From NCBI RefSeq assembly GCF_001982615.1, contig NZ_MLCO01000013.1, forward strand, positions 1 through 64,000: 64,000 nt of DNA, given 5' to 3'. Every line of letters starts with the position of its first letter. The stretch's first letter is position 1. The position numbers and the translations under genes are program-made. Shown here piece by piece: positions 26,928 to 30,798 of the stretch. Source of the stretch: Teichococcus deserti (GTDB lineage: Bacteria; Pseudomonadota; Alphaproteobacteria; Acetobacterales; Acetobacteraceae). The notes under the pieces were generated by a model. It was not told the DNA's origin, made no database searches, and worked only from the letters and a program-made list of their open reading frames with translations.

Positions 26928-27698
26928 TTACCTCGACGCCAGGATGAACAGCCGCCGGAAGGGCAGCAGCACGGTGCCGTCCGCCTGCACCGGGTAGTGC
27001 GGTCGCAGCTTATCAGCATAGTCCTGGAAAAAGTCTGGCCGCGCCGCTTCCGGTAAGGCGTCGAGATACGGCCGCAGGCTGGTGCCCATGGCCCATTGCA
27101 CGACGGGGTCCGGCCCCTTCAGCTGGTGGACGTATTCGGTGAACCAGAGCTCCAGCCGGGCAACGCGCGGCCGCAGCAGGTCGTAGTAGTCGCCGGCGCC
27201 CAGGATCGGCGGCGCCGATCGGATACCGGCGAGCCGGTCCGACCAGGCTGGGCTGGCGGCGAGCTCGTCCTGCAGGGCGCGCAGCGGTGCGGCGTGCATG
27301 GCAGGCATCTGCACCGCAAGCGCCCCGCCAGGCGCCAGGGCGCCGAGCAGCCGCGAAAAGAGCGCCGCATGGTCCGGCAGCCAATGCAGCGCGGCATTGG
27401 TGAAGATGACATCGACCGGCGCGGCGGGGGACCAGCTGGCGATGTCGGCCTGCTCGGTCGGGAAGCCGGCGGCTTCGGCCTTGGCCAGCATGGCGGCCGA
27501 GCCGTCGATGCCGCGGATCTCGGCGCCAGGGAAGCGGGCGGCGAGCAGCGGCAGGGCATTGCCGGCGCCGCAGCCGAGATCGACGACGCGGCCGGGGCCC
27601 GGATGCTCGATGCGGGCGATCAGGTCAATCGCCGGGCGCAGACGCTCATCGGCGAAGCGCAGGTATTGCTCGGGGTTCCAGCTGGGATTGGCGCTCAT
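26928..27698 (-). CDS. tam: Trans-aconitate 2-methyltransferase
   Basis: A 256-residue SAM methyltransferase that esterifies trans-aconitate, a spontaneous by-product of the citrate cycle that inhibits aconitase. The N-terminus WNPEQYLRFADERLRPAIDL, motif I VVDLGCGAGNALPLLAARFP, and FTNAALHWLPDH match Tam closely. The ATG at 27696-27698 overlaps the stop of the upstream 61-residue membrane protein gene, so the two are coupled. The much longer upstream frame is not used. Confidence 0.92.
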   Translation of the reverse strand: MSANPSWNPEQYLRFADERLRPAIDLIARIEHPGPGRVVDLGCGAGNALPLLAARFPGAEIRGIDGSAAMLAKAEAAGFPTEQADIASWSPAAPVDVIFTNAALHWLPDHAALFSRLLGALAPGGALAVQMPAMHAAPLRALQDELAASPAWSDRLAGIRSAPPILGAGDYYDLLRPRVARLELWFTEYVHQLKGPDPVVQWAMGTSLRPYLDALPEAARPDFFQDYADKLRPHYPVQADGTVLLPFRRLFILASR

Positions 27699-27880
27699 CG
27701 AGGCAGGGTCCGGTCGAAATGCCGCTTCACCAGCAGCAGGCCATAGCCGACGGCGACCACGAAGAGGCCGAAGCCGAGATCCTGGGTGGTGACCAGGGTG
27801 ATGTCGTCGCGCGCCAGCAGCAGGCCCATCACGGCCAGGATGCCGGCGCCGACCAGGCGCAGGACGTCGATCAGGGGCAT
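27695..27880 (-). CDS. Small two-helix membrane protein
   Basis: A 61-residue protein with two predicted membrane helices, LRLVGAGILAVMGLLLA and LGFGLFVVAVGYGLLLV, joined by a short polar loop with DDITLVTTQD. The C-terminus is basic. I do not recognise a family. Its stop codon overlaps the tam ATG (four bases), which argues that it is a real translated gene in the tam unit. Confidence 0.7.
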   Translation of the reverse strand: MPLIDVLRLVGAGILAVMGLLLARDDITLVTTQDLGFGLFVVAVGYGLLLVKRHFDRTLPR

Positions 27881-27998: not shown

Positions 27999-28790
27999 TC
28001 AGGCGGCGACCCAGCCACCGTCGATCGACAGGGCAGAGCCGTTCACGCCGCCGCTGCCCGGGCCGCAGAGATAGAGCGCCATATGGGCGACCTCGTCCAC
28101 CTCGACCCAGCGCTTGCTCGGCTGCTTGGCCAGCAGGAAGTCCTTCAGCGCCACCTCCTCGCTGACGCCATGCTTCTCGGCGAGCGCCGCGACCTGCTTC
28201 TCGGCCAGCGGGGTGCGGACGAAGCCTGGGCAGATGGCGTTGCAGGTGACGTCGGTCTGGGCGATCTCGAGCGCGATCACCTTGGTCATGCCGACCACGC
28301 CATGCTTGGCGGCAACATAGGCAACCTTCTCCGGCGAGCCGACCAGTCCATGCGCCGAGGCGATGTTGATGATCCGCCCCCAGCCACGCGCCTGCATCCC
28401 CTTCAGCACCGCCTTGCTGGCATGGAAGTTTGAGGAAAGGTTGATGGCGATGATGGCGTCCCACTTGGCGTCCGGGAACTCCTCCACCCGGCTGGTGAAC
28501 TGGATGCCGGCATTGTTCACCAGGATGTCGACCTGGCCGAGCGCAGTCTCCGCTTCGGCGACCATGGCGCGCACCTGGGCCGGGTCCGAGAGGTCCGCGG
28601 CGGAATGCGGCGGCTCGGCGGCACCCACCTCGGCCACGGCACGGCGGGCGGCGGCGATCTCCTCGGGCGAGCCGAAGCCGTTCAGCATCACCTTCGCCCC
28701 GGCCGCGGCCAGCAGCCGGGCGATGCCAAGCCCGATGCCGCTGGTGGAGCCGGTGACCAGGGCGGTGCGGCCCTTCAGACTCTGTTCCAT
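27999..28790 (-). CDS. bdhA: 3-hydroxybutyrate dehydrogenase
   Basis: A 263-residue short-chain dehydrogenase that interconverts 3-hydroxybutyrate and acetoacetate with NAD, linked to polyhydroxybutyrate turnover. Seen are the cofactor loop TGSTSGIGLGIA (residues 14-25), NNAGIQFTSRVEEFP, and the catalytic Ser, Tyr and Lys in IASAHGLVGSPEKVAYVAAKHG. The AEKQVAALAEKHGVSEE lid and NGSALSIDGGW end are typical of the hydroxybutyrate group rather than generic SDRs. It lies 32 bases after the flavoprotein gene's stop on the same strand. Confidence 0.93.
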   Translation of the reverse strand: MEQSLKGRTALVTGSTSGIGLGIARLLAAAGAKVMLNGFGSPEEIAAARRAVAEVGAAEPPHSAADLSDPAQVRAMVAEAETALGQVDILVNNAGIQFTSRVEEFPDAKWDAIIAINLSSNFHASKAVLKGMQARGWGRIINIASAHGLVGSPEKVAYVAAKHGVVGMTKVIALEIAQTDVTCNAICPGFVRTPLAEKQVAALAEKHGVSEEVALKDFLLAKQPSKRWVEVDEVAHMALYLCGPGSGGVNGSALSIDGGWVAA

Positions 28791-28822: not shown

Positions 28823-30268
28823 TCAGGGCAGCAGGCGCAGCCAGCCGGCGAGCGTCCTGGCCCAGGGGGGGGCGAGCTTCCCGCCGAAGGGCGTGGCTGG
28901 ATAGATCGATCCGGCGCTGGACTGGGCTGCGTGCACCGCTGCCTCAGCGCGGCTCGGCGCCGGCAGGGAAAGGTTGGCCAGGGCGTCGAGCGGCAGGCGG
29001 CGGCCGATCATCAGGCTGAGCAGGCCGGCAAGCTCCGGCGCGCCCTGGCCCAGGATGCCGGCGCCGAGCAGGGTGCCGCGGCCATCCACCACAAGCCGGA
29101 CCAGCCCCTCGGTCGCGCCTTCGGCGATGGCCTGGTCATTGCCGGCAAAGGGCTGGCGCAGGATGCGAGGGTCGTGGCCGGCGGCGCGGGCCTCGGCCTC
29201 GGTCAGGCCGATCTGCGCCAGGGCGGGCGCGGTGGCGATGGCGCGTGGGCTGGCGCGCCCGTCCAGCCGGACGGGCAGGCGGAACAGCATGCTGTGGGCG
29301 ATCACCGCGGCATGCGCGCCGGCAGCCTGGCCGGGCCGCAGTCCTTCGGGATCGGCGATGTCACCGGCTGCCCAGATGCGGCGGTTGGTCAGGCTGCGCA
29401 GGTCGGCGCCGGTGGCGACGCCCCGGGAGGTGGCGCGGATGCCGCCGGCGGCGAGGTCGAGCGGCGCCAGCCGCGGCGCCTGGCCGAGCGCGAAGAGGAG
29501 GTGCGAGCCAGCGATGCGGGCGCCGCCCTCGAGCACCGCGGCGAGGCCGGCTTCGGCCGGCTCCAGCGCCGCGACCGGGCTGTTCTCCAGGATCTCGATG
29601 CCATCCGCCCGCAGCGCCTCCCGCAGCGGCTGGCGCAGTTCGGGCTCTTCCGTCTCCAGGAGGTTGGGGCTCGGCACGACCAGGGTGACGCGGCAGCCGA
29701 GCCGCGCGAAGGCCTGGGCCAGCTCGACGCCGCGCGCCGTGCCACCCAGCACCAGCAGATGCGCCGGCGGCGCTTGCAGGCCGAGTAGCGAATCCTCCGT
29801 CAGCCAGGGCAGGCCGACCATGCCGGGCAGGTCAGGCAGCACCGGGGCGGTGCCGGCGGCGATGACGGCGCGCCGGAAGCTGTGCACGCGACCGGCGGCC
29901 TCAAGGCGGTCAGGGCCGGTGAAATGCGCCGACGCCTGGATCAGCGTCACGCCATGCCGCTGCAGCGCGGCGGCGGAGGCAGGCGGCGCCGCCTCGGCGA
30001 CGGCGCGGCGCAGATGCGCCTGCACGGCGGCCCAATCGACGGCGACCGGCCCGATGGACAGGCCGAAGCGCGTCGCGTTGCGCAGGTCTGCGGCACGGTG
30101 CGCAGCGGCGAGCAGGGCGGCGACGGCGACAGTGCCGCCTTGAGGAGAGGAATCGGCCGAGGCCTCGCGCTCGAACAGCGCCACCTTGAGGCCAAGGGCG
30201 GCGGCCTGGGCTGCCACCGAGAGCCCGGCCGCGCCGGCCCCGATGATCGCCAGGTCGTGGTCAGGCAT
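28823..30268 (-). CDS. FAD-dependent pyridine nucleotide oxidoreductase, disulfide reductase fold without redox cysteines
   Basis: A 481-residue flavoprotein with the class I disulfide reductase architecture: an FAD loop IIGAGAAGLSVAAQA at the N-terminus, an NAD loop LLVLGGTARGVELAQAF in the middle, the second FAD motif IWAAGDIADPEGL, and a C-terminal dimerisation domain. The CxxxxC redox pair expected after the GG near residue 43 is missing (GGTVAVAALLAAAHRAA), with an apparent short deletion. The C-terminal HPT His is also absent (LPAPSRAEA). It cannot work as a dihydrolipoamide, mercuric or glutathione reductase. The start at 30266-30268 follows GAGGAA. Function unknown; it lies directly before bdhA. 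Confidence 0.82.
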   Translation of the reverse strand: MPDHDLAIIGAGAAGLSVAAQAAALGLKVALFEREASADSSPQGGTVAVAALLAAAHRAADLRNATRFGLSIGPVAVDWAAVQAHLRRAVAEAAPPASAAALQRHGVTLIQASAHFTGPDRLEAAGRVHSFRRAVIAAGTAPVLPDLPGMVGLPWLTEDSLLGLQAPPAHLLVLGGTARGVELAQAFARLGCRVTLVVPSPNLLETEEPELRQPLREALRADGIEILENSPVAALEPAEAGLAAVLEGGARIAGSHLLFALGQAPRLAPLDLAAGGIRATSRGVATGADLRSLTNRRIWAAGDIADPEGLRPGQAAGAHAAVIAHSMLFRLPVRLDGRASPRAIATAPALAQIGLTEAEARAAGHDPRILRQPFAGNDQAIAEGATEGLVRLVVDGRGTLLGAGILGQGAPELAGLLSLMIGRRLPLDALANLSLPAPSRAEAAVHAAQSSAGSIYPATPFGGKLAPPWARTLAGWLRLLP

Positions 30269-30663: not shown

Positions 30664-30798
30664 GTGAAGCGTACTTATCAGCCGTCCAAGCTCGTCCGGA
30701 AGCGCCGGCATGGTTTCCGCGCCCGCATGGCGACGGTGGGTGGCCGCAATGTCCTGGCCAACCGTCGCTCCAAGGGCCGCAAGAAGCTCTCCGCCTGA
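30664..30798 (+). CDS. rpmH: 50S ribosomal protein L34
   Basis: A 44-residue basic protein, with [20 protein letters not shown] at the start and [13 protein letters not shown] at the end, the full L34 sequence. The start codon is GTG at 30664, preceded by GGAG nine bases upstream. It opens the conserved run rpmH-rnpA-yidD-yidC. rnpA begins 31 bases after the stop. Confidence 0.98.

Follow-up and report, generated by a model that had tools for sequence, protein, structure and literature searches.

The window, a 64,000-nucleotide stretch of Teichococcus deserti DNA, carries on its minus strand (28823..30268, stop codon included) a 481-aa Cys-less, MerA-like flavoprotein of the disulfide-reductase fold, identified from its ORF, Pfam matches and alignments and referred to here as OX. 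The first-pass annotation had recognized an ORF of this fold with a dimerisation domain, and the Pfam searches agree: OX lies above the gathering cut-offs for Pyr_redox_2 (PF07992, 136.6 bits, cut-off 26.1), Pyr_redox, and Pyr_redox_dim (PF02852, 64.1 bits, cut-off 25.3), so that the pair of domains used to test for the flavoprotein disulfide reductase fold (Pyr_redox_2 and Pyr_redox_dim) is present. Plus-strand ORFs over the same region were taken as high-GC artefacts, and a plus-strand reading as unrelated to OX. Directly downstream, as had been stated, and 32 nt away on the same strand, lies bdhA (27999..28790, minus strand), encoding 3-hydroxybutyrate dehydrogenase (TIGR01963, 340 bits, cut-off 307.05). 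After bdhA on the same strand comes a SAM methyltransferase (Pfam Methyltransf_23/25; window positions 26928-27716), which also follows bdhA in 13 of 15 syntenic regions of the genus (L073-L088 set) and may belong to one transcription unit with OX-bdhA. On the other side of OX stands a divergent series of genes that we take to be rpmH-rnpA-yidD-yidC-engB-argB-dapD-dapE, the names being assigned by recognition rather than by family search; its first member, rpmH (30664..30798, plus strand; recognized from its sequence), marks the syntenic locus together with the rest of the series.

OX retains its FAD motifs, namely the GxGxxG motif (GAGAAG, residues 10-15; 30224..30241, minus strand), the FAD-ribose Glu, and the Asp of the second FAD motif (Gly-Asp, residues 302-303; 29360..29365, minus strand). 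The active-site loop (residues 35-55; 30104..30166, minus strand) is different. Its sequence, EASADSSPQGGTVAVAALLAA, aligns without gaps to the corresponding GGDCLNxGCVPSKALL segment in intact relatives and in PDB homologues, with Ser41 and Thr46 in place of the two cysteines and Ala50 in place of the next Lys, so that CxxxxCxPSK has become SxxxxTxAVA. A loop deletion as the cause of the missing CxxxxC, which is what the first-pass annotation had suspected, is ruled out by this ungapped alignment with relatives and solved homologues; the apparent deletion arose because a different GG had been aligned. A compensated frameshift masking CxxxxC was likewise ruled out, given that CxxxxC appears in neither alternative minus-strand frame of the loop and that the loop of the G015 relative is similarly replaced.

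Other motifs are altered as well. Column comparison shows the NAD(P) Rossmann motif, GGTARG (residues 175-180; 29729..29746, minus strand), to be partly changed, the OX segment reading GGTARGVE where many orthologues have GGGPIGLE, and Val198 occupies the end of the second NAD strand, where 102 of 117 intact rows (those with CxxxxC in the census described below) have Glu. The earlier statement that both the FAD and the NAD motifs are intact thus holds for FAD and fails for NAD. The flavin-side F-T-H loop of OX has a 3-residue gap, absent from the first-pass annotation, which in the alignments falls between codons 312 and 313 (29330..29335, minus strand). Near the C-terminus, LPAPSRAEA (residues 435-443; 28940..28966, minus strand) stands at the position of LPYPTxxEA in intact orthologues. 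The alignments confirm that OX has neither CxxxxC nor HPT, but the C-terminal motif is PYPT in 112 of the 117 intact rows, with its Tyr aligning with the MerA Tyr (PYLT) and the lipoamide dehydrogenase His (HPT). The HPT His was therefore already gone before the cysteines were lost, and the sequence comparison suggests that LPAPS most likely derives from LPYPT. This leaves without support both the proposal that the His was lost along with the cysteines and the suggestion that joint loss of the two half-sites signals a new reaction.

OX stays far below the cut-offs of its best NCBIfam models, PRK06370 and MerA. Its top NCBIfam match is PRK06370 "FAD-containing oxidoreductase" (NF004991; 275.6 bits against a cut-off of 620), a model that also tops the NCBIfam results for two Cys-less relatives and two intact orthologues; all five proteins fall below the cut-off, the best intact one reaching 411.7 bits. 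OX scores 231.7 bits against the 454.45 required by TIGR02053 (MerA), 213.5 against 408.8 for TIGR01350 (dihydrolipoyl dehydrogenase), 144.0 against 465 for NF003585 (Si-specific NAD(P)+ transhydrogenase, STH) and 152.7 against 479 for NF005883 (NAD(P)H-quinone dehydrogenase, PRK07845). With respect to dihydrolipoyl dehydrogenase it also lacks CxxxxC and has LPAPS at the HPT position, and the ungapped alignment places it outside the flavoprotein disulfide reductases as defined by CxxxxC. MerA carries a C-terminal vicinal Cys pair; no Cys was found in the C-terminal part of OX. The intact orthologues share CxxxxC and the Tyr (PYPT/PYLT) with the MerA core (TIGR02053; PDB 5x1y, 1zk7), while OX differs from MerA in having no CxxxxC and in scoring far under the TIGR02053 cut-off.

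An AlphaFold model of OX, built with 21 sequences, had a pLDDT of 79.6, with values below 50 at residues 37-43, 309-312 and 436-438, which are the altered active-site pieces, and at 451-466 and 478-481 in the C-terminal tail. An intact Caldovatus orthologue reached 85.6 with no segment below 50. MerA 5x1y was the best Foldseek match of both models (TM 0.82 for OX and 0.87 for the intact orthologue), lipoamide dehydrogenases following closely, and TMq for the OX model was 0.79-0.85 across the 50 structures listed. By its title, PDB entry 4k7z holds MerA with NADP and with two Cys changed to Ala, and the MerA fold therefore appears to tolerate the absence of the Cys pair.

Judged by sequence and gene order (rpmH-rnpA-yidD-yidC | OX-bdhA), OX is the syntenic orthologue of a MerA-like Acetobacteraceae flavoprotein. 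A first search for relatives gave 24 loci: three distant ones and 21 close ones bearing Acetobacteraceae or Rhodospirillales names. Of 17 genomes searched in the genus, 16 had a match at E<=1e-60; of 249 searched in the family, 117 had one. Linkage to bdhA, which the first-pass annotation had proposed checking, persists: bdhA is directly downstream in 16/16 genus loci measured, at a gap of 10-170 nt, and yidC and engB lie on the other side in 15 of these, the last ending at a contig end. Three measured relatives outside the genus have the same arrangement with gaps of 35-67 nt. Among 16 of the 21 close relatives examined, a same-strand downstream bdhA was found within the stretch examined in 13, up to ~4 kb off, and not in L013, L014 and L024. 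Five Cys-less loci from a second genus (code g4) occupy the same place, with bdhA, and two further Cys-less copies (G074, G113) lie near yidC/rnpA with no bdhA within the stretch examined. No intact close copy of OX was found elsewhere in its own genome (G000): the other four matches there are 27-33% identical and have both CxxxxC and HPT. Of the 17 genus genomes, only G002 and G006 contain a further match at E<=1e-60. G006 has a heavily deleted syntenic copy beside bdhA and a separate copy with CxxxxC and PYPT in a stretch without marker genes (L046/L079; also L039/L078), and it is possible that the second copy has taken over the function in these cases.

Within the genus, the syntenic copy carries CxxxxC in three of 17 genomes (G005, G009, G014), has one Cys in one (G002), is unreadable because of N in one (G003), and lacks the pair in 12 (G000, G001, G004, G006, G007, G008, G010-G013, G015, G016), G007 being a contig-end fragment that was counted in this tally and left out of the census. 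Among the stages that the loops represent are GGACLNTGCVPTQ, GGACLNTGGVPAQ and GGRRQNSGAIPSQ, loops replaced throughout with no change in length, and loops with deletions. In a census of 139 rows, CxxxxC was present in 117 and absent from 22, the latter comprising one N-masked row, three with a single Cys (L024, L036, L072) and 18 with neither Cys, drawn from the window's genus (11), genus g4 (5), G074 and G113. The census omitted duplicates (L001, L006-L009, L011, L026), distant matches (L027-L029), the genome's own paralogues (L002-L005) and the 10 weakest matches of the family search; its 139 rows retain at least three duplicates between collections (L023/L096, L021/L093, L017/L098; identity 1.00, all intact) and some paralogues. 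In genus g4, all five genomes for which the family search listed a match are Cys-less (L134, L145, L147, L165, L169), with two loop versions, GGRRLRQR and GGEAPDPE. L024 (Neoroseomonas terrae; SGLNAGC) and L072 (G181; THLNAGC) have lost the first Cys alone and keep the second Cys, the Lys and PYPT; such forms may represent either early steps of the loss or enzymes working with a single Cys.

On an 84-row tree inferred with the active-site columns removed, presence or absence of the pair required six changes, single-Cys losses included, and well supported branches made five of these unavoidable. When the three single-Cys rows were set aside, loss of both cysteines required four changes, only two of which were forced by supported branches, and three changes remained when L163, L150 and L038 were also left out; L163 (G113) and L038 (G011) are long branches of unsure placement.

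Erosion in the Cys-less proteins is uneven. The comparison used the 113 columns with 95% conservation or more among the intact rows, 117 in number (15 active-site columns from the Cys loop, the F-T-H loop and the Tyr; seven FAD columns; 91 others). Here the 18 Cys-less proteins kept 45/270 active-site cells (17%), 109/126 FAD cells (87%) and 1253/1638 other cells (76%). This contrast is partly built in, because the rows were chosen for absence of the cysteines; the F-T-H loop and the Tyr, which lie elsewhere in the chain, are eroded as well. The three Gly of GxGxxG are kept in 18, 17 and 18 of the 18 proteins and the NAD-domain Glu E182 in 16, while FAD Asp303 survives in only three, OX among them. 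With this Asp gone in 15 of 18 members, FAD binding may therefore be failing in relatives of OX. At seven columns, no fewer than 10 of the 11 Cys-less genus members share a residue that is rare in intact rows; at only two of these, A321 and P367, is the residue missing from all three intact genus members.

The first-pass annotation had argued against random decay, and this was borne out. In a pairwise codon model (own implementation, F3x4), OX and its G015 counterpart gave an omega of 0.128, with a likelihood ratio of 147 against omega = 1. Eight pairs of Cys-less proteins gave 0.04-0.15 (not all independent: three pairs fall within one trio and L041 is used twice), and L032/L037, in which L037 is N-masked in the loop, gave 0.10. 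Twelve intact pairs gave 0.023-0.093, the L035/L036 pair, in which one member lacks one Cys, gave 0.121, and five neighbour genes in the OX-G015 genome pair gave 0.027-0.083. Pooled omega was 0.092 for six pairs versus 0.054 for ten intact pairs. These values are model-dependent, Nei-Gojobori giving ~0.32 for the OX-G015 pair. In a substitution shuffle, six pairs (among them L032/L037) had ratios of observed to expected amino-acid changes of 0.45-0.59, in every case lower than any of 1000 shuffles; the ratio was 0.58 for L035/L036 and 0.23-0.48 for ten intact pairs, the ranges overlapping at the edge. OX is under real but relaxed constraint. By both the codon model and the shuffle test it departs from the omega near 1 of a neutral pseudogene, and with purifying selection after Cys loss and no CxxxxC, it is therefore not evolving as a neutral pseudogene and not functioning as a disulfide reductase. 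Cysteines retained in sister species had been proposed as the mark of a decaying pseudogene; they are indeed retained in three of 17 genomes, but selection still acts on OX, unlike on a neutral pseudogene.

A slower form of decay has to be weighed, in which several lineages lost the function and erosion of the gene continues. The sister species that keep the cysteines (G005, G009, G014), an omega about twice that of intact pairs, and the large loop deletions (L046) and lost FAD Asp of the most eroded members all accord with such a relic, and the absence of stops from the OX-G015 pair is weak evidence against decay, as only 0.8 would be expected by random placement. Across the six pairs together, however, ~9 stops would be expected and the aligned frames contain none; the two stops of G010 (L042) fall beyond the ORF end (match to 2823, ORF to 2799). 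Furthermore, neutrality is rejected in nine pairs (L032/L037 included; likelihood ratios 124-348), the Cys-less pair L147/L134 (ratio 0.45) falls within the intact shuffle range with the others just above it, and 12 Cys-less genomes of the genus carry the gene at the locus, one of them readable as a fragment only. We consider a slowly dying relic improbable. Far less probable still is that the protein is idle and the frame is kept open solely because breakage would be polar on bdhA: the OX-bdhA adjacency is conserved in the genus with the 10-170 nt gaps given above, but polarity would bar stops and frameshifts and not amino-acid changes, which are strongly under-represented here.

Precedents exist for family members with an incomplete or absent pair, described as scattered cases (PMC6296175). 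According to that paper, Irc15p, a yeast lipoamide dehydrogenase paralogue, has lost both redox cysteines and holds one FAD per protomer, which NADH reduces; quinones and ferricyanide are reduced and disulfides are not (PMC6296175). In STH at least one Cys is missing, as is a His, and M. tuberculosis LpdA lacks one Cys and the His-Glu dyad (PMC6296175). OX resembles Irc15p in the loss of both cysteines and retention of the FAD fold. It differs in that Irc15p, as described there, is a duplicate that kept the catalytic His-Glu dyad, whereas OX is a syntenic orthologue, without a close second copy in its genome, in which the Lys, the Tyr and a portion of the flavin-side loop are missing as well. 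STH/UdhA and LpdA likewise combine the disulfide-reductase fold with an incomplete Cys pair (PMC6296175), but OX has neither Cys and does not reach the family models.

Chemistry through a CxxxxC dithiol must be impossible in the OX lineage, and any activity must be Cys-independent, in agreement with the earlier expectation of a reaction other than disulfide chemistry. Whether that means a Cys-independent NAD(P)H enzyme (a diaphorase, quinone or oxygen reductase, or transhydrogenase), with FAD handing electrons directly to an acceptor, is doubtful, although we hold it more probable than the relic. Such chemistry is known in STH, LpdA and Irc15p (PMC6296175), the FAD motifs of OX are intact, E182 is widely kept, and the gene is under purifying selection. 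On the other hand, the NAD motif is altered, the strand-end Glu and active-site Lys are lost, the flavin-side loop is shortened, and the STH and NAD(P)H-quinone dehydrogenase models are far from their cut-offs. Nothing found favours the transhydrogenase, quinone or oxygen reduction proposed by the first-pass annotation over a non-catalytic role, because the NAD-site residues, the Lys, the flavin-side loop and, in most Cys-less members, the FAD Asp are eroded too.

The reading we rank highest, at an even chance, is that OX is a pseudo-disulfide-reductase kept for a Cys-independent role, with a FAD scaffold favoured. The ancestor at this locus was a MerA-like disulfide-type flavoprotein, with CxxxxC and PYPT, at a fixed place upstream of bdhA in much of the Acetobacteraceae. 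In the OX lineage the redox site (both cysteines, the following Lys, the F-T-H loop and the C-terminal Tyr) has been replaced, while purifying selection has held the fold, the GxGxxG motif, the FAD-ribose Glu and, in the OX copy, the FAD Asp. OX would then still fold as the family dimer and, to judge by its retained motifs, likely binds FAD, without shuttling electrons through a dithiol. Its role would most likely be that of a FAD-holding scaffold or NAD(P)H-sensing partner, and by analogy with Irc15p it might have at most a slow Cys-independent diaphorase activity. Synteny with Cys-bearing orthologues, the graded series in the genus, the census, the selective loss, the purifying selection, the kept fold of the model, the MerA double mutant 4k7z and the Irc15p precedent speak for a pseudoenzyme. 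Against it, the looser constraint compared with intact pairs would also suit a gene that is being lost, relatives may be losing their hold on FAD, the columns specific to Cys-less members give little sign of a new function, and the active-site loop and tail rank with the least reliable regions of the predicted structure.

More speculatively, and we would put it as an unlikely extension, the ancestral protein may always have had a second, Cys-independent role, so that the redox site was discarded in parallel in at least two, probably at least four, lineages of one family. The second role would be that of a FAD-loaded dimer acting on or signalling to something else, perhaps within ketone-body metabolism alongside bdhA, and the redox site would have been discarded repeatedly because that role suffices.

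Cys-less or Cys-poor proteins of this kind are already known from Irc15p, STH and LpdA; what seems new is that, at a single syntenic locus and with selection still acting, the loss is graded and has happened repeatedly, of which no report was found in the literature searched, which was limited and mostly not on these organisms. The orthologous gene, its place fixed by synteny, ranges from intact to fully Cys-less stages among close relatives, and the losses recur in other genera. Such a natural series lets one ask what remains possible for a disulfide reductase without its disulfide, and whether a second job existed throughout.
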